Shown: positions 1,576 to 26,247 of the stretch, piece by piece
Layout: each line of letters opens with the position of its first letter
How positions within the stretch are numbered: the first letter of the stretch is position 1
Virus record (IMG/VR): IMGVR_UViG_3300022187_000086
Span: 1 to 38,045 of that record
From: a virus
DNA: 38,045 nucleotides
Reading direction: 5' to 3' (one strand)
Notes under the pieces: generated by a model
Told to the model about the DNA's origin: nothing
Seen by the model: the letters and a program-made list of their open reading frames with translations, nothing else
Database searches by the model: none
Made by a program: the position numbers and the translations under genes

Positions 1576-3255
1576 TTATAAATCGTCAAACAATCCTCCG
1601 CTCTGAGCCGCTTGTTGAGTCTGATTGGCCGCATCATTCTCGGCGTTTTCGCGCTCTGCCTGTGGGCCAAATACAATTCCAGACTGCAATCCCTCAAGAG
1701 TAATGTTAGGGTCTCTGTACGTCCTTCTAATGGATTGCAAAATACTCTGTACTGCCTCTCTGTCCCTAAACTCATCAAGAACAATGGTCTTGACTTTATC
1801 ATACTGTGAGCCAGTTTGTTTCACCGAGAGATCCGTAAGCACAATCTTGCCGTTTGGAAGGAATCCAATCTCTTTTGGTTGAATCTCAAACTGAACTGGT
1901 TCCAATGCCATATCCCCAAGAGCATATGCAAGTTGATCGATTTGACGCTTGAGTGACTGAGCTTCGGAAGACTCCTTATCTCTGATAGCGTCGTACTCAT
2001 CATTAAGATCCGCAAGTTTGCGGTTCTCCTCTCCTGCACGTGGGTTATCAATGATGATTGTCTCTTTCTTCTTGTCAAGAGCAGACAACACGTACGAACT
2101 ACCCTTAACTCCGCCGTACATTTCAAAGTCCTCTATAGGCACAAGAACTCCGTCCTCATCGGTCTCCATGAGCTCTCCAGTCCTAAGGTACTCAACGCTG
2201 TCAAGCACGAATGAACGCTTGCTGTCAAAGTCTGATCTGTAAATTTCAGCATCTCTGTCAGAGGACGTGGGTTTAGCCTCCTCCTTTTCATCTGGGTACC
2301 GTGATGCCTCTGCCATCTGCTTGACGAGCTCGTTGTTGATGTCCGAGATGTATTGAGAGTTCATTTGGTATGCCTGACTGTTGATTTCGCCCTGAATGTA
2401 AGATGTCACCAACGACTCATTGTCTCTCATCGCGTCTGTAAACAAGTTTGCCACAGCCCATGCTCTTGCAGAAGCGGAGTCTTCGTTGTCAACACCTCCC
2501 TCAACGATACCTCGCGAAACTCTGTACGCTTCGTCGCGGTCCCAAATTTTTTTGTTATAGGTACGAAGAGAGTCTCTAATTACCCCCTCGCCAATCTGAA
2601 TCGCACTCCTACCATATCGAGCCTGTGTTGGAACGGTGAAGGTGGCTGGGTTGGCCCAAGTGTCCCAGCTAGTGATATCTGACCAATCACCAGTTGGTTC
2701 TCCAGTTTCTGGGTCAATAGACTTATACATGACGGTTCCGTCAGCCCCCATTTGAGTCACAATGTTTGTCCCCTCAAAGGCCTGTTGAGCCTGAATCATA
2801 GACTGAGGAGATGCAGCAGACTGCATATAAACTGGAAGCTCCTCGTTAAACTTGGCTGCTGAAGAAGCATCAGTAGCAACTTTATTGTACGTCTCTCTGC
2901 TGCTTTGAACCTCATCGCTGTTGTGTGCAGCGTAAGTGTTGAACCAGTTTGCAATATCCTGTACAGCTCTGCGTGCAGCGACGGGATCGTCAATAGCAAA
3001 GTTGTTTATTTCTTCAAGCTTCTGGTTGTAGTATGTCTTGAAGTGATCGCGCAAAGGCGGGATAAGCTTAGACACATCATACCCCTCTGTTTCAGCAAGC
3101 AACTTGTCAGCCGCCTTCTGACGAGCGTTCATCTGATCGACAACTGCCTTCTTCTGTGCGGCCTTAGCCGCCTCCTGCGCTTTAAGGTTGTTAAGAAGAC
3201 CAGACATATCTGTCTTCCCCACAGACTTAAGCGGTGCTGTATACGCTACTGGCAT
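1576..3255 (-). CDS. Virion protein of unknown fold, candidate ejection/cargo protein (559 aa)
   Basis: A 559-residue, mostly helical, hydrophilic protein. Residues ~15-60 are Ala/Lys/Gln-rich and probably coiled coil. The last ~25 residues are Gln/Ala/Asn-rich and end in GGLFDDL. I see no signal peptide, membrane segment or catalytic motif. The start codon overlaps the stop of the preceding gene (TAATG at 3257-3253), so the two are probably translationally coupled. It sits between two proteins with membrane-active segments (328 aa upstream, partial gene downstream), which suggests the middle member of a three-protein ejection set like T7 gp14/15/16. This is inference from order and size only; no homology is claimed. 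Confidence 0.85.
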   Translation of the reverse strand: MPVAYTAPLKSVGKTDMSGLLNNLKAQEAAKAAQKKAVVDQMNARQKAADKLLAETEGYDVSKLIPPLRDHFKTYYNQKLEEINNFAIDDPVAARRAVQDIANWFNTYAAHNSDEVQSSRETYNKVATDASSAAKFNEELPVYMQSAASPQSMIQAQQAFEGTNIVTQMGADGTVMYKSIDPETGEPTGDWSDITSWDTWANPATFTVPTQARYGRSAIQIGEGVIRDSLRTYNKKIWDRDEAYRVSRGIVEGGVDNEDSASARAWAVANLFTDAMRDNESLVTSYIQGEINSQAYQMNSQYISDINNELVKQMAEASRYPDEKEEAKPTSSDRDAEIYRSDFDSKRSFVLDSVEYLRTGELMETDEDGVLVPIEDFEMYGGVKGSSYVLSALDKKKETIIIDNPRAGEENRKLADLNDEYDAIRDKESSEAQSLKRQIDQLAYALGDMALEPVQFEIQPKEIGFLPNGKIVLTDLSVKQTGSQYDKVKTIVLDEFRDREAVQSILQSIRRTYRDPNITLEGLQSGIVFGPQAERENAENDAANQTQQAAQSGGLFDDL

Positions 3256-4241
3256 TACTCTAGTTCAATTTCCACTTGAGGTACTTGGAACTGTGGCTCA
3301 TCGAAGTGACTCATCTTTTCCAAAGCCGCAAGAAGTTCTTTAGGTGGGTTTTGCATCTTAGCAACGGCGTCCTTGAGTATCTTGAATGCCGCCATTGTGC
3401 TCTCCGTCTGCTCGGGGTTAAGAACTGCTTCGTCACCCGTAAGCTCTGCCTCCTTCTCTCCAGTTTCTTCGTCAACCAAAGCCTTCTTGTTGGTGTCGTG
3501 GTTAAACTCACCTCCAGTCACATAGATCTGATCGTTGAGCATACCGCCATTTTTCTTTATCATCTTAAGGCCGAGCTGCTGAGCAGTGTACGGGTTGTCC
3601 CCACTTGGCGCCCCATATCCAGAAAGGCTTAACCCAGTATCAACAGCCGATCCAAATGCCCCAATACCCTCTTGAATAGCTTCTGTTCCAGCAGCATAGC
3701 CCAAGCTGGCTGCTGTCTGACCCTCTCTACGAAGCTGCTCTTGAAGAGCCCTATCAACACCAATGTTCAGGTCTGAAACCTTCTGCTCTCTAGCGATGTT
3801 AGCCTGACTGTACCCTTCAGCCAAATCAGCAAGGCGCTTATCGGCTTCTGTAGCCTGCTTTGCTGCAGAAAACTCTGACTGAGCAAGCTGTTGGCTAAGG
3901 GAAGGTGCTACATTAGCGATAGTTTGACCAGCCCTTGTGGGGTCCATAACGCCAGAGGCAATAGACTGCTGAGCAAGAGCTAGGTTCTGCTCTCTGAGAT
4001 TTTTGATAGACTCAGCCGCCTGAATCTTTTGGGCCTCAGCGAGGTCTCTTGATTCTTGGGTGATGCCAAGCTGGGGACCAACCTGATAGTCAAGCTCATC
4101 GAGGCGCTTCATTGCGTCCTCGGCAATCTTTTCTCCAGCGAGCCTTTGCTTCTTGGCTCTGCTTCCTTTTACTGCGGCCTTGCCACCCTCAACAGCGAGT
4201 GTTGTGCCCGCCGCGATTAGTGCTGCTGTTATTAATGGCAT
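3255..4241 (-). CDS. Small internal-virion/ejection protein candidate (328 aa)
   Basis: The N-terminus MPLITAALIAAGTTLAVEGG is a short hydrophobic helix followed at once by a basic patch (KGSRAKKQR). Residues ~35-190 are Ala/Gln/Glu-rich helix with coiled-coil character. Around 228-240 comes an LGLKMIKKNGGMLNDQ segment, then an acidic tail. A small protein with an N-terminal membrane helix and a helical body, placed after the tail nozzle, resembles podovirus internal virion proteins of the T7 gp14 or P22 gp7 kind. The function is inferred. The ATG at 4241 lies four bases after a TATATTTG promoter element (4253-4246), so this gene probably starts its own transcript for the ejection genes 4241 to 1. 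Confidence 0.85.
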   Translation of the reverse strand: MPLITAALIAAGTTLAVEGGKAAVKGSRAKKQRLAGEKIAEDAMKRLDELDYQVGPQLGITQESRDLAEAQKIQAAESIKNLREQNLALAQQSIASGVMDPTRAGQTIANVAPSLSQQLAQSEFSAAKQATEADKRLADLAEGYSQANIAREQKVSDLNIGVDRALQEQLRREGQTAASLGYAAGTEAIQEGIGAFGSAVDTGLSLSGYGAPSGDNPYTAQQLGLKMIKKNGGMLNDQIYVTGGEFNHDTNKKALVDEETGEKEAELTGDEAVLNPEQTESTMAAFKILKDAVAKMQNPPKELLAALEKMSHFDEPQFQVPQVEIELE

Positions 4242-4260: not shown

Positions 4261-5199
4261 TCACTTAGAGTGGTCTAAGTCAGTTGGTTCATAATTAACG
4301 TTGAGTGAGTACAGCTCGAAGTTTTCGCTTCCAAGGTTTATAACAGATTCCGCGTACTGACCCCTCAAAAAGTCTCCATTAATTTCTGGATCTGTAATTG
4401 CAAATACAGATACAATCCCTTCATTTGCAGTAACCTGAGCGCCAAGGGTGTTTAACGCGGGCAAAGTAGACTTAAATACAAGCCCTTGTTTTGTCAAGAC
4501 GCTTTCTTCCCCACCAGCAACCTCAGAGGCCTTGGGGATGTTTATTCCCGAATTAATAGTATAGTAGTCTGCTGTAGTTGACAAATTTAAAATTTGTCCA
4601 TCAGGACTGATGATGACTGGATTGTTTCCGTTTCCGAACAGAAAAGCAAGTTTTGTGTTACCCTGAACAGAAGGTGCCGCTCCATACATTCCGTCAAAAG
4701 CATATAGATCGTCAAATGCTCCTCCAATAGTCAAAAACTCTGTGTCTTTATGAATTTGACCCAAAAACTTCATGTTTACATTAGCCTTAATTCTTGTGTC
4801 TCTTGGCATGTGGCCGTACAAAATACCCCCCTTATTAGATAAAGTTCCAACGGTAATACTTCTGGGTGGCTGGTTGGGCTGTAGTGTTTCGCTAGTAGAA
4901 AAGGTATGAAGTGAGCCAGTTAGGTTTTCACTCCCTTCTACGCTAAACGTCTTGTATAGTTTGTTCTGCGACGGGTTGTCGTTAAAAGATACCGCAATGA
5001 CGGATGGATATACCGAGCCATAAAAACTGTTATTTGAGCTGTTGGTGTGGTGCTCCCAAGCTACGATATCGTCAGTAGCCTCGATCCTATTGCGCGAAGA
5101 AAAAAACTGCTTGTCAATAGAAGCATAGTTAGAGGACTCGTAATCGTACTTAGACGTCCAAATATTTTTCTTGTCGTTAAATCCTATTGTTTTTTTCAT
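4261..5199 (-). CDS. Muzzle C-terminal-module-like protein (312 aa)
   Basis: The N-terminal ~100 residues read KKNIWTSKYDYESSNYAS, then AWEHHTNSSNNSFYGSVY and NDNPSQNKLYKTFSVEGS. From memory, this order (W-T/S-x-Y-x-Y-E, a W/H-rich strand, NsFYG, N-D-x-P-S, K-x-x-K-T-x-x-x-E-G-S) is the pattern at the C-terminal end of muzzle/stabilisation proteins of crAss-like and related Bacteroidota phages, where it is part of one long chain. Here it is a separate gene starting 8 nt after the stop of the 2547-aa muzzle candidate. It probably assembles into the tail nozzle. The similarity is by eye and needs a profile search. A 7-bp hairpin covers its stop region. Confidence 0.85.
   Translation of the reverse strand: MKKTIGFNDKKNIWTSKYDYESSNYASIDKQFFSSRNRIEATDDIVAWEHHTNSSNNSFYGSVYPSVIAVSFNDNPSQNKLYKTFSVEGSENLTGSLHTFSTSETLQPNQPPRSITVGTLSNKGGILYGHMPRDTRIKANVNMKFLGQIHKDTEFLTIGGAFDDLYAFDGMYGAAPSVQGNTKLAFLFGNGNNPVIISPDGQILNLSTTADYYTINSGINIPKASEVAGGEESVLTKQGLVFKSTLPALNTLGAQVTANEGIVSVFAITDPEINGDFLRGQYAESVINLGSENFELYSLNVNYEPTDLDHSK
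4263..4280 (-). terminator. Hairpin at the 3' end of the 312-aa gene, upstream of the next promoter
   Basis: The leftward transcript can form ACTTAGA-CCAC-TCTAAGT, a 7-bp stem with a 4-nt loop overlapping the stop codon. No U-run follows, so it is a weak terminator at best. It may instead be a 3'-end stabiliser or insulator. It lies 10 nt upstream of the TATATTTG box, the same order as at 14488 and 36543. Confidence 0.4.
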
Positions 5200-5207
5200 G
5201 GATGTTT

Positions 5208-8200
5208 TTAATTCACAAGTCCAAGTTCAAAAAGTTGCGTATCTGGGTTAAATGTAATCACTTTGTTAGCAGGAATGTATGAACTTAGAGCGTTAGTAAG
5301 CGCAGTAATAAACTGAGGCGTTGAAGTACCTTCACTAAACTCGTAATTAAAAGTTCCAACATTTGACTCTGAGAAATTGGCAAAAGGTCTGTCTCCAACA
5401 TATGCTGTAGTTGAATCTGCCACATCATCTATAGTAACTGTTGGAATAAATTCTTGTCCAAAGGCCGACAAGAATTTGAGCAAGTCATTCGTAGTAACTG
5501 ACCCGTCGCCAGTGAGGTCAGAGGTTTGGTTTTTTATTAGATCATCTGAGCTAGGAACTATTCCGCTTGAAATGTTAAAGGAATAATTAACTTCACCCGA
5601 AGGATTATTTGCTGTGCTAGCAAACGACCTCCTCACAGCAAAATCGTAGTTTGCAAGAGTTGAAGCAATAGCTGTATTAATTGATGAGTTGGCAGCACTA
5701 AGGGCTAGGTTTACTATTTGCTCTGGATCAGTCGGAGAAGGATCTTCGCCACCGCCGTTAGCAGCAATAATAGCAGCCGAAAGGCTAGCATAGGTCTCTG
5801 GGCTTAAGATGTCTTGTGCAGTACCTTGGAAGATAATAGGATTGCCATCAATAGTGTTAAAAGTCTGTCCATTAACCGTAAAGTCATTAGGATCTTGGAA
5901 AAACGCAAATACCTCAGTGGTGTTAATGATTTTATCAAGAGCTTTTCTCAGCGCGTCATATGAAGACACCATGTTTCCTGAAGCAGTCTCTATATTTTGA
6001 CCAACGATGACTCCTTCAGCAGTTAGTCCTGTTCCTTCGTCGCCAGTATATCCAACGCCATAAGATTGTGGGGTCGATGTATTTATATCAAACCCTGTAC
6101 CACTAGAAGATATAATGCTTGACAAATCTTCAGATCCAAAGAGTGCTTGAAACTCCCTGAGTCTAGTGAGCGCCTCTGTGATATTACCAAGAATATTTTG
6201 AGCAATACTATAAGATGGGGACGTTGAAATTGGAAACCCAAAAAGAGTGTCGAATTGCGATCCAATCTGTGTTAGACTTAGATTATTAGTCTGGCTTCCA
6301 GAATAAAAGCCTGCAGATGTAACTGACGTTAAAGCAGGAGTGATAAGATTCTGAAGGTTTTCAATTAGCGCCCCAAGGTTTCCTCCCGTATCCGTGCTGT
6401 CAGTAATCAAGTTTCTAAATGATTGAATCCTAGATTCAATAACTGAAGAGTTGTTATCTTGGTCCAGAATGTCATCAATAGATATTGCATCAATTGAGGT
6501 TGATAGCGTTCCAAACCCACCAAGGTCAATTTCATCTTTTATGTCATTAAGAACGCCTCTAATCTGAGCCCTAAGAGTATCAGTGATTTCTCCAGTGCCC
6601 GTATCAGTAGTTTGAATGCCGCTCAAAAAATCAAGTACAGCATTGACGTTGCCAAAAAGATTCAAGAATGTGCTGCCAAGATCATCTTGTTCAAGAGTTT
6701 GCCCCCCGAGGGAGTCGACAATTATGTCGGCTGATGCTGGAGTAGATCCAGCAAAAATTAGATTGTAGAATGACTCTGGTATTGTTTGGCTTGTCTCCAA
6801 ATATGTGGGCGTGATACCCCCACCAAGTTGAGACTGCACATTGTAAGTAGTTTGAACTGAGTTGTACAGAGAGTACGCAAGAGAGTCTCTTGTCGCTGTA
6901 AGAGCAAGCTCCGTAGCGGTTAAGGCGTCTATGTTACCTTGGTATGGGTTTCTGTAGTTTAAAAGACCATTTTCAATAAGGTTCAAGACATCGTTGTAAA
7001 GCAAGTTGTTTCCTCCGATAATTTGCTCTTCAAGAGCAGAAAACGAAAGGTTTGTATCAAGCTGCACAGCATCATACAGGTTTTTAAGAGGACTATCCTC
7101 TAGGCCTCCTTCAGAGCCAACTCCATAGTCAGAGCCAAATGGGTTTTTACCTTGTGCGTCAATGTCTTCTGGCGGCGTATTAGGGTCTGGCCCTCGTCCC
7201 TCGTAGATAGCGTCAACAAAGGCGGCAATTTGAGCAAGTAGCTCAAGCTTGGTGGCATTAGACTCTTCAAGCTCCCCCTTGATGTTTTGGTTCTCTTCAA
7301 GGACATCGTCGATAGCATTGGCATTAATGCTATTAATCAATCGAGTTAAGTCAGCACGATATCCGTTAAATCCAACAAAGTTGTCTACAAACGCAGCGTC
7401 GTCAAAGAGGGCGCTACCCTCGGGGTAAACGTTATCGTCAAATGCGTCTTGTAAAGAATCAGTCGTGGGGATGCCGTATCCAATGTTAAAGGTAATCGTA
7501 GACTGATCTCTAAGAACGTAAGTTCCTTGAGTCTCATCATACCTACCAAAAGCTGGCTCTGTTTGATTTGTATTGTACTCTCTTAGCTTGTCAACAAAGG
7601 CTTCAACAACACTGAGGTACTGCTCAAGGTTTACTTCCTGACCGGGAAACAAACCCAATTCTGAGAACACATCGGCATTAAGATTTGCTGGGAGAGTAAT
7701 GAGGTCTCCTTCAAAAACATCGGCTTTAGCCGTGCCAGTATACGAAGTAATAAATGCATTACCCTCAGCAACACCCTCCTGAGCTTGCCGCAAAACCAAC
7801 AGGTGAAGCGACTCAGCTGCCTGAATCTGAGATACAGTAACATTTTCAATGGAATCGATGGTTTCTGTTGTCTCATCAATTTGATCATTAAGATCAGCTA
7901 TAACATCATCTATGCCACCTTCGTCTGGGTTGTTGACAACATCTCCAATCTGACCATACAGCAACAATATCTGTTGTTGCAACTCGCTAATTGTTTGGTT
8001 GGCCTCAGAAAGAGAGGCAGCCAAATCACCAACATCGTCAAGAAGGTCGTTAACATCCTGAACAGTAACAGCCGGCGGAGAAGGTATAGATGGGTCTGGA
8101 GTTGCCGTGCCTGTAGTCTGAGTAAAGGTGCCAGCAGAAGTATACGCAATCCTTATTGCGTTGTTCACACTGATGACAAACTCATCAAGCACAGGGTCGT

Positions 8201-11200
8201 ACCCGCCTACAACGCGAACAGTATTTGTCCCATCAACAGCATCAAGAGCAGACTTAAATAGCTCCCTAAAGTAAGACTTCAATCCATACTCCGAGATAAC
8301 AGAAACACCGTTAGAAGGGTTGAACTTGTAAACCTCAAACTTGTCCTTATTGGCAAAATAAATACTCTCGCCAACCCTAGTAACTGACTCGGGGTTATCG
8401 CTGCATCCAAAGTCACCAGCGTAAAAGCGCTGAGTTCCAAGAGTCTTTTCTGAAGCTACAACTATATCAGTTCCAACGGCATCAGAAAGGAGGGTGCGAG
8501 ACACTGGAATTTCGCTAATTTTATCCTCCTGAATAACAAACACACTATCTCCACGATCCAGAAGCTTTTGAATGCTTCCGTGAGAGTTGGGAAGATCCTT
8601 GAAGTTAGATGTTGTAGCATCAAACGTACAGTACCTCAACCTAGGTAGTGAGTAGTTGTTTACGTCACTAAACGTAATAGAAGAATCTCTTCGAATTTCG
8701 CGTTGGAATCGATTTACAATCTTTGGCTTTCCCCAGTTTTGCTGGTTGGCGCCAACGATGGTATCAGTAAAAGTTTGGGTTTCCAAGAAATAATCTAAGA
8801 AACGAGGGTTAGTCCCCCCTCCATTTTGTATGAGGTTTATGTACCTCGATGATTGTTGATCAAATCGGGGCATGTTTACAGGCAATCTTCTAAAGTAAAC
8901 GTCACCCTCAGTCAATACAATATTTGGGTTTTCCCACTGCGTATTGCCAAGAGCGTCCCTGATTACCCTATATTTTTTCCCGATCTCATAGTACACCCTG
9001 TCTTCTGCATCTTGATTTTTTCTAGGAGAATATATTTCAAAGACGCAACGATTGTTCCATTTGTGTGAAGAGGTGGATGGGTTTTGAGTGTTGTCAACTA
9101 TACTATCCCTAACATTGTTGTACGTAAAACCTACTGCTGATGGATTGTTTCTTAAGATTAAGAACTGACCCACACACGCCTGAGGTGTTTCTACATCGGG
9201 GTTAATCAATGGGTTTTGAGCGTCATCAGCAAGAGTTACTGTGCCAACAATGTCAAACTCATATGATTCTGGGAAAACGCGGGCTGAAAGTTCATCCTGT
9301 CCCGGCTGCACCGGCCCAAAGTAAGACAGAATCCTAAGCTTGTCCCCCTCTTTATACGTGTAGAAATCTTTATTTCCATCATAATTTACAGCGCCAAAGG
9401 CATTTGAGTAAGAAACCTTACTGTCGTTCTGAAGGTAGTTCAGGGAAACATATATGTTGCCGTTACCGTCGGGGTCGTCAGAATCGTACTGCACAAATGC
9501 TCCGCCAGCGGTGTACTGAATAAAGTCGGCTACGGTGCTGTTGCCCCCATACACCAACTGGTAGTGCCAAGCCCAAGAAGGCGGAGAAAAGTTACTTAGG
9601 TTGACTTGGACTTGAATGGGCCCCTTTTCTGGCAACACGTTGTAACCGGGAATATAAATGCTTCCAGCTGGGATTACATCACTAGATCTACCTCGTTCAT
9701 CATAGAATACAACGCCAAAGTCGTGATTTGCCTTAGTCTTAAACGACTTATATGTCTGCTCTCCCCCAGCCGCAACAGGAGGAATCTGAACTGTCTCAAA
9801 GTCAAATACTTCTACGTGAGGGTGCAACTCTTCAAAGAAAGCGTCGTCATCAGCCAAGCCGCTGCCAGATGGGGAATCAGTAAAGTCGGAAAGTGAAATA
9901 TTCGACGTATTACTGATAAGCGGCATATTGTTGTATGCCGCCCTGTATAATTCGAGACCCGCACCATAACCACCAAGATCAGACCACGGTGAGCAACCCA
10001 TAACAATGGTTTGGAATGCCACACTAGACATAGATTGACCCGAAGCGGTGTCGCTTTTTTTACCGCCAGCACCAGCCTCTCCGTCAAGCAAGCTAAAGGC
10101 GTAATCAAAGTACAAGTCGTCTCTGTTAAAAATGTTTACATTGTGATTTAACAAAGAGTCTTGAGCATAGTTGTGAAAAGTGTTTATAAGTCTGCCGCCT
10201 TCAAACTGCAAGTACTGCAAATCGGGATTAATAAACTCATCGAGAACGTCTCCAACTCCTCCGCCAGCAAAAGCACCCTGAATTACACCGTTAAAATCAT
10301 CGGTAAACGTAACCGTAGAACCCTCTGGAACAAGAAATCCCATCCATCGCCTTATGTTTTGAGCGATTATTGGTCCTTTCGTTTGAGCAATATATGCAGC
10401 ATTTCCAAGAAGATTTGCGTCTGCAAACTGATATGAATTTAAAAGCCATGTTGCTTCGTCGTACTCCCACTCCTCTTGGGCTATGGCATACAGCTCTTCA
10501 GCATTGTTGTTAAACAACGACTGAAACTGAGACAGTGTCATGTTGCGGACCTGAAACTGAATGTGGTCTTGCGACATACACACCCAGCCCTGAAATGCAA
10601 TGTTTCCGCCCGCCGTTGGATCTGGGATATAACTTTCAATACCTTCTCCCTCATAATCCAGAAGTACGTCTGGAACACATGTAAGTGTTTGAAAATCACC
10701 AAGATCAATGAGGTCCAAAGAAAAGAAAAGGTCATCGGGCCTTCCCGTATCTTGCACCGAGGGGTCTGGGTTTGGATTCTCAATAGCGTAGAAAGCACTA
10801 ATGTCTCTCAGTCGGAACTCAGGGTTAGCCTTGTTTACAATAAAATATCCCATAGGGACGTTAAACTGAGCATTTTCGCTTGTAAAAAGACTATCCTGCT
10901 TACCTACAGCCACAATCAAGTCTGCTCTAGAGTCTGGAGAACCGTAAAGGTTGATCTTATCAAGATTGTTTAGCCCCAAGTCTATTACATAAGACGTAGT
11001 AGAAACAGAATTAATAATTGAGATAGGTGGCGTTGGGTCCTCAGCCACAGGATCAACACCGTCCACACGAGTGGCTGGACCCTTTAGCATATTCTTTATG
11101 GCGCTGGTAAGCTGCGCCTTTGACAAATCAGAGAGAGTAACAAATGACCCGCTAAAGGTCATGGGCTTACCCTGAATAATAAAGGGGTTGCCAGCATTTG

Positions 11201-12851
11201 TTCCATACGTTGCTTTTTGCCCCGCACTGTCGAAAGCCCCCTGATTGTCTCCAGCAAATAGGGTTCTCCATCTTGGAAATCCGGCCCCAGCCTCACCATC
11301 AAGAACACCATCGCCGTACGGGTTGAAGCATACCCCAGACTTTCTAGATCGAGTTATTCCGCTCCCATTGTCCTGAAGGGTAAACGTTGAGTTTTTACCA
11401 AAGTACTGAGAACCGTCGTTTAAAAAATCTGGCGAGACTTGCTGATCGGTAGCCTGAGCATGAACATCCTCGTCAAAATAGTTGGTTTCGTCTCTGAGAT
11501 AATTATATCTTGTGCTTCCGTGATAACCAGTTCTTGATTCGTAAAAATGAAAGTGGTTATCTGGAGACAAAGAAATGTTGAAGATGATTTGTGTGTTTGC
11601 AGGGACGCCATCATCTGGAAGTTGTGAAGTTCCAAGTCTATAAGAGGCAACTCTGTTGTTGCACGTGCCAATCTTGCCGAGTGGATTGTTAGTGTTTCTA
11701 ACCTGAGGCTCTAGCGTAAGGTTGAACGTGATAAAGTCTTGAGGCCTTTCAAGCGACTCATAGTTTATGACCGCATCAATGTTGGGTACATCAAATCCCT
11801 CAACGTAGTTTCCAAAAAACAACCTGTTGTTAGTAACCTCTTGGGCTTTGGCTTTTTTGGGTACTGAATCAAACTGCCTTCTAGATTCAGCCTCTGGCAA
11901 AATGGTAAGAACCTTATCGTTGTAAAAGTCAAACTGCAACGCAGACCCATCGTACTCAACTTCATCTACAACAAACCAAGAACCAGTATTGCCCTCCCTT
12001 ACAAGAAGCTTAACCCTGTCGACCTCGCTGGACATTGAGTTTGGTGGGATCTGTACTGCCAAATAGTTTTCAGAGAAAAACGAAGCATTCGGTGCGGCGC
12101 CCTGATTTATATAAGCCCGAGGGACATAAAGTTTGGAATACGTGCTCAGGGCACTTACATCTCCAGACTTGTAAATGTTTTGGTATGCAAACTGAAAACC
12201 CCTTTTGCCCTTAAAGTTGCTTACAGTAAGCGACGGATCGTTTTGAAACGAAGCAACAGGGGGGTCAATAGGTGTTCTTGGGCACGTAGAGATAAAGTCA
12301 AGAAACCCAATGTTGTTAGAGTCAGAAAGAGACTGACCCTCTGAGGCTCTCAACACATCAAGCTTTCGTGGCTCGTTAATGTTATCCGTAAAGAAAATAA
12401 CGGGCTTTACAGTAGCCGAACCAGATGAGTCAGACGGAATATATACTACAGAAGACTCAACGAAAGAATTAGAGTCAAACTTAAAGTACTTAGATGTAAG
12501 CAGTGCTTTTACTGCGTTGTCCTTCTTAGTGTATCTGTATATTCCCTGTTCAGAAGCATTGCTGCTAAAAACAAAGTAGTAAATGTCTTGGTTTCTTTCG
12601 TCCACACAGCTACCTATAACTCTGCCATTAGCTTCAAACTTAACTGACTCTTCGTTAGGAACGGCAGTATTGCCCTTGACAGGCTTAAGCACGCCGAAGT
12701 TTCCGCTTGGGGCGTCAATACCGCTATTAGAGCTGAAGTCATCGTAGTTGTCGTCAATGGTTACATTGACAGCATCAATCATCTCGTCTTTTCCTCTAAC
12801 TCTGGCGTCTTTGCTTGAGTTGAGCTTTCTTGGAAATACCTTATCAATCAT
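5208..12851 (-). CDS. Giant tail nozzle/muzzle (P22 gp10-like) protein with ~1000-residue C-terminal extension (2547 aa)
   Basis: The N-terminus (FPRKLNSSKDARVRGKDEMI, then VLKPVKGNT near residue 55) and the beta-rich body to ~1560 have the look of podovirus tail-nozzle/stabilisation (muzzle) proteins. This includes WAWHYQLVYGG in mid-chain and FGCSDNPESVTRVGESIYFA leading to GGYDPVLDEFVISV near residue 1548. After that point the chain leaves the family pattern. Residues ~1597-1693 hold two coiled-coil segments (LSEANQTISELQQQILLLYG; LNDQIDETTETIDSIEN). A ~750-residue Asn/Ser/Thr/Leu-rich helical region follows. At 2445-2464 there is an EF-hand/dockerin-like motif, DLTGDGSVTTNDLLKFLSAF. Muzzle proteins of related phages are usually much shorter. 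The gene overlaps the upstream ring-protein stop by TAATG. The nozzle role is fairly well supported; the extension's function is unknown. Confidence 0.9.
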   Translation of the reverse strand: MIDKVFPRKLNSSKDARVRGKDEMIDAVNVTIDDNYDDFSSNSGIDAPSGNFGVLKPVKGNTAVPNEESVKFEANGRVIGSCVDERNQDIYYFVFSSNASEQGIYRYTKKDNAVKALLTSKYFKFDSNSFVESSVVYIPSDSSGSATVKPVIFFTDNINEPRKLDVLRASEGQSLSDSNNIGFLDFISTCPRTPIDPPVASFQNDPSLTVSNFKGKRGFQFAYQNIYKSGDVSALSTYSKLYVPRAYINQGAAPNASFFSENYLAVQIPPNSMSSEVDRVKLLVREGNTGSWFVVDEVEYDGSALQFDFYNDKVLTILPEAESRRQFDSVPKKAKAQEVTNNRLFFGNYVEGFDVPNIDAVINYESLERPQDFITFNLTLEPQVRNTNNPLGKIGTCNNRVASYRLGTSQLPDDGVPANTQIIFNISLSPDNHFHFYESRTGYHGSTRYNYLRDETNYFDEDVHAQATDQQVSPDFLNDGSQYFGKNSTFTLQDNGSGITRSRKSGVCFNPYGDGVLDGEAGAGFPRWRTLFAGDNQGAFDSAGQKATYGTNAGNPFIIQGKPMTFSGSFVTLSDLSKAQLTSAIKNMLKGPATRVDGVDPVAEDPTPPISIINSVSTTSYVIDLGLNNLDKINLYGSPDSRADLIVAVGKQDSLFTSENAQFNVPMGYFIVNKANPEFRLRDISAFYAIENPNPDPSVQDTGRPDDLFFSLDLIDLGDFQTLTCVPDVLLDYEGEGIESYIPDPTAGGNIAFQGWVCMSQDHIQFQVRNMTLSQFQSLFNNNAEELYAIAQEEWEYDEATWLLNSYQFADANLLGNAAYIAQTKGPIIAQNIRRWMGFLVPEGSTVTFTDDFNGVIQGAFAGGGVGDVLDEFINPDLQYLQFEGGRLINTFHNYAQDSLLNHNVNIFNRDDLYFDYAFSLLDGEAGAGGKKSDTASGQSMSSVAFQTIVMGCSPWSDLGGYGAGLELYRAAYNNMPLISNTSNISLSDFTDSPSGSGLADDDAFFEELHPHVEVFDFETVQIPPVAAGGEQTYKSFKTKANHDFGVVFYDERGRSSDVIPAGSIYIPGYNVLPEKGPIQVQVNLSNFSPPSWAWHYQLVYGGNSTVADFIQYTAGGAFVQYDSDDPDGNGNIYVSLNYLQNDSKVSYSNAFGAVNYDGNKDFYTYKEGDKLRILSYFGPVQPGQDELSARVFPESYEFDIVGTVTLADDAQNPLINPDVETPQACVGQFLILRNNPSAVGFTYNNVRDSIVDNTQNPSTSSHKWNNRCVFEIYSPRKNQDAEDRVYYEIGKKYRVIRDALGNTQWENPNIVLTEGDVYFRRLPVNMPRFDQQSSRYINLIQNGGGTNPRFLDYFLETQTFTDTIVGANQQNWGKPKIVNRFQREIRRDSSITFSDVNNYSLPRLRYCTFDATTSNFKDLPNSHGSIQKLLDRGDSVFVIQEDKISEIPVSRTLLSDAVGTDIVVASEKTLGTQRFYAGDFGCSDNPESVTRVGESIYFANKDKFEVYKFNPSNGVSVISEYGLKSYFRELFKSALDAVDGTNTVRVVGGYDPVLDEFVISVNNAIRIAYTSAGTFTQTTGTATPDPSIPSPPAVTVQDVNDLLDDVGDLAASLSEANQTISELQQQILLLYGQIGDVVNNPDEGGIDDVIADLNDQIDETTETIDSIENVTVSQIQAAESLHLLVLRQAQEGVAEGNAFITSYTGTAKADVFEGDLITLPANLNADVFSELGLFPGQEVNLEQYLSVVEAFVDKLREYNTNQTEPAFGRYDETQGTYVLRDQSTITFNIGYGIPTTDSLQDAFDDNVYPEGSALFDDAAFVDNFVGFNGYRADLTRLINSINANAIDDVLEENQNIKGELEESNATKLELLAQIAAFVDAIYEGRGPDPNTPPEDIDAQGKNPFGSDYGVGSEGGLEDSPLKNLYDAVQLDTNLSFSALEEQIIGGNNLLYNDVLNLIENGLLNYRNPYQGNIDALTATELALTATRDSLAYSLYNSVQTTYNVQSQLGGGITPTYLETSQTIPESFYNLIFAGSTPASADIIVDSLGGQTLEQDDLGSTFLNLFGNVNAVLDFLSGIQTTDTGTGEITDTLRAQIRGVLNDIKDEIDLGGFGTLSTSIDAISIDDILDQDNNSSVIESRIQSFRNLITDSTDTGGNLGALIENLQNLITPALTSVTSAGFYSGSQTNNLSLTQIGSQFDTLFGFPISTSPSYSIAQNILGNITEALTRLREFQALFGSEDLSSIISSSGTGFDINTSTPQSYGVGYTGDEGTGLTAEGVIVGQNIETASGNMVSSYDALRKALDKIINTTEVFAFFQDPNDFTVNGQTFNTIDGNPIIFQGTAQDILSPETYASLSAAIIAANGGGEDPSPTDPEQIVNLALSAANSSINTAIASTLANYDFAVRRSFASTANNPSGEVNYSFNISSGIVPSSDDLIKNQTSDLTGDGSVTTNDLLKFLSAFGQEFIPTVTIDDVADSTTAYVGDRPFANFSESNVGTFNYEFSEGTSTPQFITALTNALSSYIPANKVITFNPDTQLFELGLVN

Positions 12852-13708
12852 TAGTACTTAGGTGCCTGCTTGAAGTTCTTTCTAATCGTTCTCAATGCCT
12901 CATCTCTAGTGAAGTTTCCGAGGCGAGCTTTAGCCTTGCGACGCTCGTTGTAATACTCAGAGCGAGCTCTCATTTTTTCGTTTGCAGGTACCGTTGACTT
13001 TCTTTCACATAGCTTGTAGTACATATAAGCACGAAGAGCTTCTTCGGCATATACGTGAATTAGTGGGTTGGAGCTTCTTGCCTCATCAGCTATGTACTCG
13101 ATCACCACCTCTGTTATGTCGCTCGACGTGTCAAGCTCTATGCGGTTTTGATCCAAGTTGATGCGGTACTCCCCCATTCCGTGACCACCGCCAATTCCAT
13201 ACAAACCTCCGAGCGTGTTCTCGTAGATGTAGTTTCTAAACACGTATGACTCAAATGGATCGTCACTACTCAGCACATCAGCTCCAGTAGTAGAGGTCTT
13301 GTCGTCCTCTCTGTTTTCTACTTCGTTCTGAGTCAAGTACATGGGACCATCCTTGTCGTCAACAGGAGTAGTAGTGCCAGACACTTTACGAGAGTAGTTG
13401 ATGTTCTTGTTTTGATTCAAGACATAAACTGTTCCGTCAGCCCCAACGATTCCAATCTTAACAAGGTCTACGTAATCAGACGGGAGGTTGATTGTGTTGT
13501 TGGAATTAATAGTTCTTTTTAGCGACTTAATTCGTGCAGTCACATCAAATCCAAACTCGCGTATACCGCGAAGAGCTACATTGCGAAGCATAGCATCATT
13601 GACATTTGAGATGTGATCATCCACATCCATAGTGAGCACAAAATCATCCATCACCTGCCGCAAGGTGACGTAGTTCATCCCGTTATCCGATACGTCTGTA
13701 AATGCCAT
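12851..13708 (-). CDS. Ring/head-to-tail adaptor protein (T7 gp11 / P22 gp4-like position), 285 aa
   Basis: The N-terminal half is helical (TLRQVMDDFVLTMDVDD, NDAMLRNVALRGIREFGFDV), then INLPSDYVDLVKIGIVGADG and NQNKNINYSR. The helix-bundle start plus the LPSDYvdlvkigi strand is the recurring look of podovirus tail-tubular A/gateway-type adaptor proteins. The C-terminal part is rich in Arg/Lys (YNERRKAKARLGNFTRDEAL). It lies directly between another adaptor-like gene (13712-14464) and the muzzle, matching the ring-ring-muzzle order of short-tailed Bacteroidota phages. It probably forms one of the rings below the portal. Assignment is by motif appearance and order. Confidence 0.9.
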   Translation of the reverse strand: MAFTDVSDNGMNYVTLRQVMDDFVLTMDVDDHISNVNDAMLRNVALRGIREFGFDVTARIKSLKRTINSNNTINLPSDYVDLVKIGIVGADGTVYVLNQNKNINYSRKVSGTTTPVDDKDGPMYLTQNEVENREDDKTSTTGADVLSSDDPFESYVFRNYIYENTLGGLYGIGGGHGMGEYRINLDQNRIELDTSSDITEVVIEYIADEARSSNPLIHVYAEEALRAYMYYKLCERKSTVPANEKMRARSEYYNERRKAKARLGNFTRDEALRTIRKNFKQAPKY

Positions 13709-17045: not shown

Positions 17046-18458
17046 TTAGGCTCCCTTAATGATTACGTGCTGGTTTGCAGCGCGAGTAATCAAAGCGCAC
17101 TCAGAACGGTAGTGGAAGGTTGCCTTGTCAGCGCCATCAGTTCTGTAGCCAAGAACTCCACCACCAGTTACCCAGTGCTCAAGCTCACGGCTGTAACCGT
17201 TAGCAGACTTGTAGTTCAACTCAAGAGCTGGTGCTCTGTTTCCAGAAACAGGGTCAGCAACTTGGCTCATTGGAACCATAGCCCCGTGGTATGCAGTACC
17301 TGCACCCAACAAGGTAGGATCATTCAAGAGCTTCCAGTCGTGCTTGTGGAAGGTGTAGCCACCGCGAGTAAAGCTCTTAAAGCCCAACTGAACAGCCATG
17401 TCAGCGTCGTTGTTAAACGCACCGAACTGACCAGCCAAGCCAGCAGTCAACTGCGTAGCAACACCGGCAGCAAGCATATCGTCGATGTCCAAAGACTGCT
17501 GTCTGTTGACGTACATAGCGTACTCAGCAGGAGCACCCTGTTTGTCCATCAACTTGATGACTGCATCAAACTCAGCGAGAGAGTTCAAGCCGTCAGCAGT
17601 AGCTCCGGAAACAACAATACCTCTGTTGTTAACTGCAGAGAAGTAACCCTCCGTACCAGTGATACCTTCATTAGCGGCTCCTTGGAAAGCAGACGCAGTC
17701 TTTTCTCCGAACAAGAGAGTCATTTCTCTCAAGTCTTCGAAACGCTTACGAGCTTCCATCTCGCCCTTGATGAACCAACGGTAGTCACCGTTACCAACAT
17801 TTACGTAGCCGATGTTGGTTGCTTGTGAACCGTTGACTTCGTACTTGTTCTTAACGATAGCGAAGGTTTGAGTGTGACGCTGTACGTCTGGCTCATAGAA
17901 GCTGCCGGGCTCTGCACTACCCTGAGCGTACATGTTACCCACGATGGCGAGGTTATCAGAAGCAGTAAAAGTGCGAGCTGGTGCGTCGCCGTCCAACGTC
18001 TCCATGATGAACTGCCCTGCAGAAGCCGTAGTAGCGCCACCTCCGATCTTACCGAGAGAGTTGGTGTCAGTTACGAGGAAGACATCACCTGAGATAACGT
18101 CCATAACGAGGTCGTTAGGAGCAACAACCTTGTCGGCGCCCGCAGCACCCATATCAACCGTAATGGTTGCGGTGGATCCGTTTGAAACAGTTGAAATATC
18201 AGAGCCAGAAATGAGCTTGTGGCGGCGGCCTTCTTCGAAGTAGTATACCTCGTCAGAAGTACCGACATTGTTTGTTGCGCCCGTCAACTTCAAGAAGCCA
18301 GTGATACCCTGATCACCGAATCTTTCAATCAAAAGGTCGCGGGCATCTGGCTTGGCGTAATCGTCAAGCAAGGTGCCAATAGAGACATACTTGTCTGGGC
18401 TTGTCAAAAATTTGGGAGACCTTTCGTTAAGGCCAGACCCCTGTGCTGCTGTAGACAT
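17046..18458 (-). CDS. Major capsid protein (470 aa)
   Basis: The identification rests on place (directly after the scaffold-like gene, 5 nt gap), length typical of an HK97-fold MCP, balanced soluble composition and no membrane segment. Recognisable segments are the N-arm FLTSPDKYVSIGTLLDDYAK, a beta-rich middle rich in Gly/Ala/Asp, the spine-helix-like GDYRWFIKGEMEARKRFEDL with MTLLFGEKTASAFQGAANEG (~225-270), and a C-terminal TFHYRSECALITRAANQHVI. The overall look resembles MCPs of crAss-like and other Bacteroidota podoviruses, but family membership is not provable by eye. It has no promoter of its own and is probably transcribed from 20851 through the scaffold. A stable hairpin follows the gene. 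Confidence 0.9.
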   Translation of the reverse strand: MSTAAQGSGLNERSPKFLTSPDKYVSIGTLLDDYAKPDARDLLIERFGDQGITGFLKLTGATNNVGTSDEVYYFEEGRRHKLISGSDISTVSNGSTATITVDMGAAGADKVVAPNDLVMDVISGDVFLVTDTNSLGKIGGGATTASAGQFIMETLDGDAPARTFTASDNLAIVGNMYAQGSAEPGSFYEPDVQRHTQTFAIVKNKYEVNGSQATNIGYVNVGNGDYRWFIKGEMEARKRFEDLREMTLLFGEKTASAFQGAANEGITGTEGYFSAVNNRGIVVSGATADGLNSLAEFDAVIKLMDKQGAPAEYAMYVNRQQSLDIDDMLAAGVATQLTAGLAGQFGAFNNDADMAVQLGFKSFTRGGYTFHKHDWKLLNDPTLLGAGTAYHGAMVPMSQVADPVSGNRAPALELNYKSANGYSRELEHWVTGGGVLGYRTDGADKATFHYRSECALITRAANQHVIIKGA

Positions 18459-22136: not shown

Positions 22137-22391
22137 TTACTCTGGTTTTACCCCGTACTCTCCAGCCTGAAGGTGATAAGTTGTTTGTCCAGAGCCAGTC
22201 AGGTATGTGAAACACATAGTCTCACCTTCTGGGATTTCTAGCGTTTCGTAGGTGGCCACGTATGTCCCGTCCTCTTGTAAGCACTCCTCTAAAGTCTGCT
22301 CATTAAAAGACCATCCCATATTGGGGCAGTTAGCATCTGTCCACGATTGGAGCAAGTCGTCTTCCGATTGTATCGTTACTGAGTACTTCAT
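22137..22391 (-). CDS. Small acidic protein of unknown function (84 aa)
   Basis: Sequence features: MKYSVTIQSEDDLLQSWTDA, ANCPNMGWSFNEQTLEECLQ, then TYETLEIPEGETMCFTYLTG. Acidic, three Cys residues, probably beta-rich. I do not recognise it. Its ATG overlaps the stop of the RCC1-like gene (TAATG), so it is the last member of the TerL-portal-fibre transcript. That proximity suggests a small fibre-associated protein or chaperone; this is only a positional guess. Confidence 0.75.
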   Translation of the reverse strand: MKYSVTIQSEDDLLQSWTDANCPNMGWSFNEQTLEECLQEDGTYVATYETLEIPEGETMCFTYLTGSGQTTYHLQAGEYGVKPE

Positions 22392-23665
22392 TAGCTTACA
22401 CTTAAGAGAAGAACCGTATTGGATGTGCCAGCTGTTCTAACAGACAGCGAGTTCACCGTTGACCCAGAAGGGAAGTTGTAAAGAGTGTTTGCGTTAACGC
22501 CGCTCAAGCTTGAGGTAGGTGAGTTCCAGCTGCCGCTACTTGGAGACCCCCATAGGCTTATCACTCCGTTTTTCTTAAAGCACCGAGCCGAAGCTTGTTG
22601 TGACCCATATCCGTGATTTATAGTGTCGTCGAAAACGTCCCAGTCAGTATCTGTTCCATACTGACTTAACGTGTAATATGAACTCGACGCCCCTTGAAAT
22701 CCAAACGTGTTTCCACAAGTGTATAGTCCAACAGATCCAGCGGTTCCCTTTCTGAAAGCAGAGTCGTAGTTCCCAGAGATGACCTGCTGCCAATCTGTAT
22801 CCGTGCCTATCTGAACGACGTATGTCTGGCTACTTCCATTAGAGATAGAAGCTTCTTCGTTGGCGGGAAACATTGAGTCTGCTCTACCAAACATGAACAA
22901 TTCGCCACTAGAGTTTATTACCATACAACCATCGCTAGCTCCAGCAATCTTAAACGAACCAGCACTGTAGTTTAGATTCTCACTCCAGTCTGTAGAAGCG
23001 GCGCTTTTAACTCTAGTAAAAGATAGGGTATTGCCAGATGTGGTTCCCTGTCCTGTCCCTCCGTAGTTATTCCTTCCTGTTGCGTACAGATAGGTATCCG
23101 TTGAACCACCCTTCAAGGCATAAGAAGTATATCTGGTGCCAGCAATGTCCTTCCAGTCTGTGTCGCTCCCCACCTGAGTCCAGCTAGTTTGAGTCGTTTG
23201 GTTTCCTAATCCGAGCTGTCCGTAAAAGTTATACCCCACACACCAGAGGGTTCCGTCTGTCTTAAGGGCCATTGCCCAACTAGAAAAGGTTCCGTTACCG
23301 CAAGCGATAACCTTAGCCACGTTTGTCAAAACGATTTCGAAGTCAGTGTGAACCGTATTGCCCCACGATTGGCTTGAACCAGCAGACTTGTGATATAGAT
23401 TGTTACTAGAGTCGATCCCAAAAATGTGAGAGTCGTTTTGAATTATTTTGGTGAATTCAATCGTTGACATCTCATAGGCGTAAGTTGGGATATCGCTGAA
23501 GAACGTGCTCCAGTCAAATGGAAAGCTAGCAAGCGAAAGTCCTCCGTAAGTGATTGTCCCAGTTGACGGATAGGTCAGCACGTGAGCCTCGCCACCACCG
23601 CCTCCAGTACCGAGACCAGAGATGTTGTCAATGTTTGCTGTATCAACTCCGATAATCTTACTCAT
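22391..23665 (-). CDS. RCC1-type seven-bladed-propeller-like protein (424 aa)
   Basis: Repeated blades of about 50 residues are visible. Examples are WAMALKTDGTLWCVGYNFYG with QLGLGNQT; SYALKGGSTDTYLYATGRNN; CMVINSSGELFMFGRADSMF; and FRKGTAGSVGLYTCGNTFGF. Each ends in a W-x-x-V/I strand such as TDWKDIAG or TDWQQVIS. This is the RCC1 pattern (x-x-A-L-x-x-D-G-x-L-(W/Y)-x-x-G-x-N-x-x-G-Q-L-G). It directly follows the tail-fibre gene with ATGA overlap, so it is probably a virion surface or receptor-binding component. The N-terminal ~45 residues contain a Gly-rich linker (GLGTGGGGGEAH) typical of fibre tips joined to a shaft. Enzymatic GEF activity is not implied. Confidence 0.9.
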   Translation of the reverse strand: MSKIIGVDTANIDNISGLGTGGGGGEAHVLTYPSTGTITYGGLSLASFPFDWSTFFSDIPTYAYEMSTIEFTKIIQNDSHIFGIDSSNNLYHKSAGSSQSWGNTVHTDFEIVLTNVAKVIACGNGTFSSWAMALKTDGTLWCVGYNFYGQLGLGNQTTQTSWTQVGSDTDWKDIAGTRYTSYALKGGSTDTYLYATGRNNYGGTGQGTTSGNTLSFTRVKSAASTDWSENLNYSAGSFKIAGASDGCMVINSSGELFMFGRADSMFPANEEASISNGSSQTYVVQIGTDTDWQQVISGNYDSAFRKGTAGSVGLYTCGNTFGFQGASSSYYTLSQYGTDTDWDVFDDTINHGYGSQQASARCFKKNGVISLWGSPSSGSWNSPTSSLSGVNANTLYNFPSGSTVNSLSVRTAGTSNTVLLLSVS

Positions 23666-26247
23666 ATCTCAAGCCAAGTGTTGTCAGGATTAAAATAAAT
23701 CTGCGCATTGGTGGCATTGATTACGTATCCAACGACACGAACTATATCTCCAGTAGCTGAAGGAGCGGTTGTTGTGACCTCGCCCCCTGTCGTGGACAGA
23801 TATAGAACGTCGCCTTTAGAAGCCCCACTAAAGCCAGTGTTAGACCCAAGCTTTACAGCACCCTCAAGGACTACCTCGTTGGCGCTTCCCGCATCAGTGG
23901 CTACAACCAAAAGTCCAGCGCCTGTACTCGCAGCGTCAGCATCGGCAAGGGTCCACGAAGAAGCCCCAAGTATGTAAAGAGCGCCAGCAGTAATTGCTCC
24001 CGAAGTAAAGAACCCTCTACCCAGTCTAGCCCCTTCTGAGAAGTATCCGTTTGCTGGAGAGACTGGGAATCTGGCGTTTACATATATCTGCTCAGCTCTT
24101 ACTTCACCAGACACCGTAAGTGTCGTTCCATCAAAAGTTAGGTTTGCTTCACCATCCAACTCTGTGGTTGTCGCACCAATAGTAGTGAGTCTATTTTCTG
24201 CCTGATTGTTAAGAGCTGTGATTGTTCCGCCACCTCCTCCTGACGCACTGAGAGTGTCACCCGTCATAGTAAGGTTAGTTCCAATCGTAGCGTAAGTAAG
24301 CTTGCCCTCAGAGTCGTCCCAGAAGACAAGCTTGTCAGCCCCTGCATCTTGAGAACCCAGAATTTGCCCTGCGTTCATTCGCAGGACGTCGGTCGCGTTG
24401 GCGTTAATTGAAACGTCCGTACTGTTGTCAGTCCCAACGGGATCGAAATCAACGCCTGATGCTGGAAGGGCAACCCAACCAACAACACCGCTTCCGTTAG
24501 TCTGAAGAACGTAGTTGGCTGTTCCGTCAGCGGCTGGCAACGTGTATGGGTTTACACCGTCGTCAACTTTAATTTGGCCGCTAACATGCAGAGCTGTATC
24601 AGGTGAAGTTTCTCCAATACCAACATTACCACTCGCACGGAGTGTCATAGAAGGCGTGATACCAGTAGCGCCTGTAAAGAACTGCAAAGCGCCTTTGTTA
24701 TCAGCACCATCGCGTCGAGTATAAATCCTTGCTACGTAGTTGGCGCCAGAAACGGTATTGTCGTTAAGGTTGAAAACAATCCCACCGCCAAAGCCGTCAG
24801 TCATGTTACCAGACGACGTAGTAGTAAGAAGCATTGCAGACGCAATACCTGTAGTGCCATTGAAACTCCCACCAGTGATGGCAGTAGCGCGATCAAAACC
24901 AAGTACTGGGAAGTTGGCACTGGCGGCCTGAAGCTGCCCCTGAATATCCACAATACCAGTACCGTCAGGTGCAAGCGTGATGTCTCCGCTAGAGACAGAC
25001 ACAATGCTCTGACCGTTTACGTCAAGGTCACCTCCAAGCTGAGGAGTGGTGTCGTCAACTAGGTCTCCAGAAGGAATCGTAGGCGTGTTCGCAATATCAG
25101 TGTTGTAGTCAACTTGATTTAAAAGTAGCGTCTGACCACTAATCCTAATGTAGTCGTAAATGCCAGCAAGCGTGACGTCAGTACTGTTGTCTGTACCAAC
25201 GGGATCGAAGTCTACGCCTGAAGTAGGAATCGTAGGTGTGTTGGATACATCCGTAGTGTAATCTACTTGACCCAACGTGATTTCCTGACCAGCAAGCGTG
25301 AGGTAGTTGTAAGCGCCAGCGAGTGTAACGTCTGTACTGTTGTCGGTGCCAACGGGATCAAAGTCAACGCCTGACACTGGGATAGAAGGTGTACCGCTTA
25401 GGTCAGAGTATGCTCCGCTAGTAGCTACATCAGCCAGAGTGGTAGGTGTAGCAACACCACTTGCATTACCAATCCATGCCTGACCGTCGGGGATGTTGGG
25501 GACGTCGTTAGCCCTTCCAGCACCCATGATGATGCCAGAGATCTTGTTGCCACTTACGTTTACCTTGATGATAACGCCGAGGTTCTGAATGGCGTTTGTA
25601 CCAGTAGGCTTGGTTGTTGTCCAGCCCCCAGAAGCTCCAAGGTATACCGTCTGGCCCTCCGTGTAGATAGAGGCGTTAGGAACGTCTACGTTGTTGATGA
25701 ACCCCAGCGCAATACCCTTACCCTCGCCTTCGTCAGCAAGATCTTCGTCAAGTACGAAGTGGGCTGGGTAGTTAGTAGCCGCATCCGCCGCAATAACCTC
25801 AGCAAGGTTGCCTACGCTGCCAGTGACATGAACAGGCGTTCCCTTATACAGTGGTCCTCCAGATACGTTCTTTACGTTTTCTGCGATGGTCTGAGGGTAA
25901 GCAAAGGAAACGGTTCCAGCACCGTCAGTCATAAGAACTTGCCTGTCAGTTCCGTCGGCAGCTGGGAGTGTGTAAGCACTCCACTTCGTGTCGTAATCTG
26001 TAGCGCTGTTCTTTTGGATAAACTGATTCTCAGAACCACCAGCAATCAGCCCCTCCCCGTCTGCACCAGCTGGGCCCGTCTCGCCTTGTATGCCCTGAGG
26101 TCCAGTCTCACCTGTGTCACCCTTAGGCCCTTTTTCAGTAACTGATACAGACGTTGCAGCGGCGCTAACAACGTCTACCGATGTAGCTGCGGATACTTCT
26201 ACATCAATATTTGGGGCTGAACCTACCGTTATTGAAATATCGCTCAT
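23662..26247 (-). CDS. Collagen-like tail fibre (861 aa)
   Basis: Domain order: a short beta N-terminus (MSDISITVGSAPNIDVEVSA) repeated in SVDVVSAAATSVSV; nine Gly-X-Y triplets at 40-66 (GPKGDTGETGPQGIQG and on); a beta domain with SGGPLYKGTPVHVTGSVGN and GQTVYLGASGGWTTTKPTGT (~115-240); at least three repeats starting GVDFDPVGTDNSTDV (~300-400 and again ~610); a middle shaft; and a C-terminal domain (GYFSEGARLGRGFFTSGAIT to FNPDNTWLEI) echoing the GDVLYLSTTGGEVTTTAPSA strand. Collagen triplets and modular repeats are standard for trimeric phage fibres contacting the host. The start overlaps the upstream stop (TAATG). Confidence 0.92.
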   Translation of the reverse strand: MSDISITVGSAPNIDVEVSAATSVDVVSAAATSVSVTEKGPKGDTGETGPQGIQGETGPAGADGEGLIAGGSENQFIQKNSATDYDTKWSAYTLPAADGTDRQVLMTDGAGTVSFAYPQTIAENVKNVSGGPLYKGTPVHVTGSVGNLAEVIAADAATNYPAHFVLDEDLADEGEGKGIALGFINNVDVPNASIYTEGQTVYLGASGGWTTTKPTGTNAIQNLGVIIKVNVSGNKISGIIMGAGRANDVPNIPDGQAWIGNASGVATPTTLADVATSGAYSDLSGTPSIPVSGVDFDPVGTDNSTDVTLAGAYNYLTLAGQEITLGQVDYTTDVSNTPTIPTSGVDFDPVGTDNSTDVTLAGIYDYIRISGQTLLLNQVDYNTDIANTPTIPSGDLVDDTTPQLGGDLDVNGQSIVSVSSGDITLAPDGTGIVDIQGQLQAASANFPVLGFDRATAITGGSFNGTTGIASAMLLTTTSSGNMTDGFGGGIVFNLNDNTVSGANYVARIYTRRDGADNKGALQFFTGATGITPSMTLRASGNVGIGETSPDTALHVSGQIKVDDGVNPYTLPAADGTANYVLQTNGSGVVGWVALPASGVDFDPVGTDNSTDVSINANATDVLRMNAGQILGSQDAGADKLVFWDDSEGKLTYATIGTNLTMTGDTLSASGGGGGTITALNNQAENRLTTIGATTTELDGEANLTFDGTTLTVSGEVRAEQIYVNARFPVSPANGYFSEGARLGRGFFTSGAITAGALYILGASSWTLADADAASTGAGLLVVATDAGSANEVVLEGAVKLGSNTGFSGASKGDVLYLSTTGGEVTTTAPSATGDIVRVVGYVINATNAQIYFNPDNTWLEI
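25060..25390. repeat. Tandem coding repeats within the tail fibre
   Basis: Two consecutive ~130-bp units encode GVDFDPVGTDNSTDVTLAG, x-Y-x-Y-(L/I), GQ-x-x-x-L-x-QVDY-x-TD and NTPTIP. A third, shorter copy of the first block (GVDFDPVGTDNSTDV) is encoded near 24405-24460. Repeat expansion of this sort changes shaft length and recombines easily. Confidence 0.8.

Follow-up and report, generated by a model that had tools for sequence, protein, structure and literature searches.

A crAss-like muzzle encoded as two chains, the larger with a variable C-terminal appendage

Two adjacent genes for one muzzle

The window, i.e., the whole 38,045-nucleotide stretch of viral DNA analyzed here, encodes the muzzle of a crAss-like phage in two adjacent genes, and the larger of the two products ends in an appendage of 985 residues. 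We consider it fairly probable that the joint between the propeller and platform domains of such two-chain muzzles is a recurrent graft site for outward-facing host-contact modules, and that this appendage is one of them. The window was classified as a two-chain muzzle variant because it has two genes and both halves are homologous to known muzzles; a two-chain muzzle with a variable appendage is a known protein in a variant form and does not constitute a new system.

The genes lie in a minus-strand crAss-like structural block, in which those for the terminase, portal, capsid, and ring proteins are followed by the 2547-aa ORF (positions 5208–12851, minus strand) and the 312-aa ORF (4261–5199, minus strand), separated by a gap of 8 nt (5200–5207). 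The gene for the ring (tail tubular) protein (12851–13708, minus strand; phrog_13977, E = 1.7e-67) is directly upstream of the muzzle, a position kept in the relatives. Next downstream is a 328-aa gene (3255–4241, minus strand), which has homologues in seven of nine relatives and no family match in Pfam or PHROG; going solely by its position, it probably encodes a cargo-like virion protein. Elsewhere in the window, the portal (26723–29161) is 90–91% identical to those of three close relatives (L001–L003) and the ring protein 87%, whereas the major capsid protein (17046–18458) is only 58–61% identical and forms a basal branch in the capsid tree of the clade. The capsid gene was likely swapped by recombination. 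A collagen-like fibre protein (23662–26247), which is mosaic and poorly conserved among close relatives, and the RCC1-like repeat protein next to it (22391–23665) are probable variable fibres.

Residues 1–1562 of the 2547-aa protein (8166–12851, minus strand) form the muzzle core, comprising the N-terminal part, the propeller, and inserted domains up to GGYDPVLDEFVISV (residues 1549–1562). The ORF matched PHROG 14478, a family of 1474-aa virion proteins, with E = 2.1e-84. The N-terminal and pre-junction segments were matched in relatives by profile search, and core segments are common to the single-chain muzzles of crAss001, the elemo phages, and phi38:1, i.e., the N-terminal and propeller regions are homologous. 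The initial annotation had described a muzzle-like pattern up to about residue 1548, and PHROG 14478 extends the core to 1562.

The 312-aa protein matched the Pfam family crAss_MUZ_C (PF25729; E = 1.5e-7, 32.2 bits against a cut-off of 27 bits) and phrog_18548 (E = 1.5e-15). Iterated profile searching with its first ~90 residues led to single-chain muzzles, including residues 1202–1281 of phicrAss001 gp44, and iterated profile searches of the locus ORFs detected the MUZ_C domain in 129 of about 170 related loci. Sequence searches of the PDB with the 2547-aa and 312-aa proteins gave no true match, and gp44 was found there only by fold. The AlphaFold model of the 312-aa protein was usable (pLDDT 73); in a Foldseek search of all PDB chains, the phicrAss001 muzzle chains 7qok_A and 7qol_P took the two top ranks (E = 5e-4, probability 1.0), and VIA-align placed it best on muzzle residues 1198–1371 (Z = 7.1, 149 residues, 3.8 Å). 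This Z score would be middling by itself, but it carries weight because sequence and fold indicate the same segment of gp44. The 312-aa gene is therefore the missing C-terminal domain of the muzzle by both sequence and fold, as had been proposed for the gene lying exactly 8 nt past the stop; membership of an unrelated family, which would have undone that proposal, was not found.

The separate gene of ~312 aa recurs in L001–L003, whose muzzles are 2528–2585 aa long, and in L093, with 56–69% identity to that of the window. Because these four independent contigs show it, chance or an assembly error was ruled out as the source of the two-gene arrangement. It is also very improbable that a single chain is still produced by programmed frameshifting, stop readthrough, an intron, or an intein. 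In crAss-like phages, such introns and inteins, like recoded stops, can be abundant (PMC7886860), but the spacing between the muzzle genes ranges from -4 to +18 nt in close relatives and covers all three frames, and the small gene has a conserved start Met of its own. Furthermore, an Rfam scan detected only a tRNA and no intron RNA between the muzzle halves, which are 8 nt apart, and Pfam gave no intein family match. All four mechanisms were rejected on these grounds.

Single-chain relatives and the history of the break

Single-chain muzzles are found in the gut Crassvirales, Pervagoviridae, Elemovirus, and the sister clade of the window's group, with lengths of 1493 aa in Elemovirus, 1324 aa in phi38:1, and 1371 aa in phicrAss001, as well as in many contigs. 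In these proteins, the end of the propeller and MUZ_C are separated by 5–22 residues or by an in-line insert of 132–172 residues. Among the records listed, the matches to the gp44 C-terminus in gut crassviruses lay, in all but one case, in one annotated feature. The phicrAss001 muzzle gp44 (PDB 7QOK/7QOL; PMC10172136) resembles that of the window in its homologous C-terminal domain (1198–1371), the end of its propeller, and its place after the ring gene, but it is one chain of 1371 aa in which the joint has a linker of 11 residues and no appendage. Because single-chain forms exist (crAss001, phi38:1, the elemo phages, and 11 sister contigs), the chain is truly broken in the window, and the prospect that all relatives might share the two-gene arrangement can be dismissed.

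In the trees of conserved muzzle segments, the window belongs to a 10-member clade in which every muzzle is split into two genes at the same joint (SH-aLRT 99–100), and the 11 single-chain contigs adjoin this clade. A midpoint-rooted tree of the capsid protein, an independent gene, recovered the same 10 members (support 97) beside or within single-chain rows. When all joint-split muzzles were constrained to one clade, the topology was rejected (AU p = 0.0045), and so was a single common origin of the breaks located there. It follows that, given a single-chain ancestor, the break arose two or more times.

A single-chain ancestor is favoured by the gut outgroup, which falls short of proof because the outgroup branch is long. 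In the opposite scenario, which we regard as unlikely, the split is ancestral, the single-chain muzzles are later fusions, and the break has no adaptive meaning. Split forms are indeed common among the environmental relatives, in a set of loci that was gathered by similarity to the window, so that the frequencies of the arrangements do not represent abundance. In addition, one large clade has single-chain forms scattered among split forms that carry a common tail domain, and some refusions are possible. However, the muzzle is a single chain in the gut crassviruses, phi14:2, the elemo phages, and the sister clade, and the midpoint-rooted capsid tree nests the window's clade among single-chain rows. 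The placement of the root depends on a long outgroup branch.

Other lineages break the muzzle chain at other positions. In a third arrangement, the break is earlier, and the last propeller segment and MUZ_C are together in a gene of ~420–690 aa. This arrangement was seen in 18 non-redundant rows that form one clade in the muzzle tree (L101, L102, L104, L107, L111, L120, L124, L133, L135, L137, and their kin). Many split loci have one or more other genes between the halves, e.g., a 183-aa "putative glycosidase" in the Manatee Spring phage MW202828 (L006:11448–11999), and the halves are 0.5–2.7 kb apart in L043, L048, L059, L115, L123, and others. The largest single-chain muzzles of the set have 3333–3450 aa (L109:1433–11434, L112:1223–11413, and L142:1127–11479), ~390–410 of which follow MUZ_C. 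Two apparent splits were rejected as single-chain frames that are interrupted: Maribacter phage Panino (L009; PP540027, record 36518–40431) has an apparent frameshift in the muzzle frame, and L152 (1657–5541) has an in-frame stop. Either errors in the sequence or genuine lesions may account for these interruptions.

The appendage and its counterparts at the joint

The appendage of the window comprises residues 1563–2547 (5211–8165, minus strand), i.e., 985 residues, where roughly 1000 had been estimated. The composition shifts at the boundary between residues 1562 and 1563: Cys occurs 11 times and Trp 12 times in the core, whereas both are missing from the appendage, which has a single His and a single Met. 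It is acidic (D + E 13.8%, K + R 3.2%, a fourfold excess of acidic residues) and, as had been noticed, rich in Asn, Ser, and Thr (26.6% vs. 21.9% in the core). No family in Pfam or PHROG scored above cut-off past residue 1562, and self hhalign found no internal repeats. An AF2 model of residues 1380–2547 had a low mean pLDDT of 43.6, and the appendage is probably mainly helical according to this low-confidence prediction. The initial annotation had suggested the insertion of a new domain together with fission. The fission is borne out, but the added part is a C-terminal appendage of the larger half rather than an insert within a continuing chain.

The appendage is absent from single-chain muzzles, and its homologues occur only in L001–L003 and L013; a search of viral contigs for the appendage elsewhere found only L001–L003. 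All four share the split with the window and have homologous appendages of 821–1035 aa, which are 35–56% identical to that of the window in L001–L003 and more distant in L013. Compared with L001, dN was 0.40 in the appendage and 0.19 in the core, with appendage dS near saturation; judged from these substitutions, the appendage is a real coding region that evolves fast under purifying selection. Within the window's clade, the number of residues past the joint is 34 in L019, 102 in L004, 259 in L094, 436 in L015, 574 in L014, 821 in L013, 981–1035 in L001–L003, and 987 in the window when counted from the profile edge. Since members of the clade are split with tails of just 34 or 102 aa, fission is separable from extension. 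The tails can be aligned with each other only in L013, L001–L003, and the window, whereas portal identity to the window is 66–91% across all nine relatives; the tail of the large chain therefore turns over far faster than the machine to which it belongs.

Near its end, the appendage has a dockerin/EF-hand-like loop, DLTGDGSVTTNDLLKFLSAFG (residues 2445–2465; 5457–5519, minus strand), which is below the Pfam cut-offs, with no match to dockerin type I or EF-hand in the window. Similar motifs are near the tail ends in L001–L004, L015, and L093 and in the MUZ_C insert of L014; the clade motif DxDxDGxVxxxDLLxFLxxFG occurs up to three times in L015 and twice inside the MUZ_C gene of L014. Only these L014 and L015 versions come near the EF-hand/dockerin models, still below cut-off.

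All non-redundant rows truly split at the joint carry 34–1151 residues after it. The appendages of L005 and L148 have cadherin/Big_9 domains, and TSP1 repeats number four in L151 and up to ten in its kin L144 (TSP1/spondin-like, L144:5994–9446; E = 7e-120). The TSP1 domain is best known from animals. The other large split clade consists of 30 rows with a common tail domain that is absent from the window's clade. In Cellulophaga phage phi18:3 (Pachyviridae), the muzzle is split at the same joint into gp114 and gp115, 3 nt apart, and the annotation, based on MS/MS, lists the two of them as virion proteins; this phage differs from the window in its 502-aa tail, which has cadherin/Big_9 and the shared tail domain, and the trees indicate that its break is independent. 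In the papers searched, a split muzzle is nowhere described, not even for the Cellulophaga phages. The different and often sticky-looking domains at the joint suggest that it is a swap site for host-contact parts.

Position of the break and possible role of the appendage

The crassvirus structure paper reports that the muzzle has ring-joining and propeller domains in common with T7 and ascribes the variation in muzzle length to crass-domain and IG2 insertions, not to the propeller–platform joint (Bayfield et al., PMC10172136). Our comparison of the window with T7 takes over that likeness. In gp12, the nozzle of T7, a fibre dock exposed on the outside connects the propeller to a C-terminal platform that contacts the adaptor ring, and three platform strands are supplied by the N-terminus (PMC6702177). 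The order of propeller and platform is the same as in the window, and a dock module stands at the corresponding joint, but gp12 is a single chain with a small jelly-roll dock. By analogy with T7, MUZ_C is the probable platform or ring-joining domain; if so, the chain is interrupted after the last propeller strand and before the platform, at the outward-facing position of the fibre dock.

On this basis, the muzzle, a putative hexameric tail-tip gate, would consist of a large chain with the propeller, the Ig and crass domains, and the appendage, and a small chain whose platform docks the muzzle onto the tail barrel. With the break at the dock position, the small chain would be held by the N-terminal strands of the large chain, which may build part of the platform as in T7. 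Covalent continuity would then be dispensable, and the two chains most likely re-associate non-covalently. A module on the freed propeller C-terminus would face outward, so that the phage could carry about six copies of a long module outside the tail, where it would probably contact the host surface or another fibre. At the top of the muzzle, the appendages of the window might form a roughly sixfold set of arms that are acidic and probably helical, and other lineages would place different modules at the joint. Because the appendage has neither a family match nor a confident model, we infer its binding role by analogy with these lineages.

Alternatively, the appendage could be an internal plug or an ejected segment in the tail lumen, which seems a rather poor prospect. 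Its acidic and probably helical nature, the storage of cargo inside the tail as reported for crassviruses (PMC10172136), and very weak, chance-level matches (E = 0.05–0.06) to profiles of LXG and of the phiKZ internal head protein fit a lumenal location. However, the equivalent segment of T7 is on the outer surface (PMC6702177), and the TSP1 or cadherin-like domains at the joint in other lineages suit an exposed position. We thus prefer an outer host-contact arm.

The muzzle is treated as one conserved crassvirus protein. Our results show that its chain can break at a fixed joint, in two or more lineages, and that the break is used for large variable modules; the split also gives a name to phrog_18548, a gene family that is common in environmental phages and carries the label "unknown function". 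Tentatively, repeated muzzle fission may be a general device in environmental crAss-like phages that provides an exchangeable receptor-contact arm while leaving the gate undisturbed. If this is true, host contact would evolve through a two-part muzzle whose arm (helical, TSP1, cadherin, or EF-hand) can be exchanged, and the joint would be a new place to seek host-range determinants in these phages.
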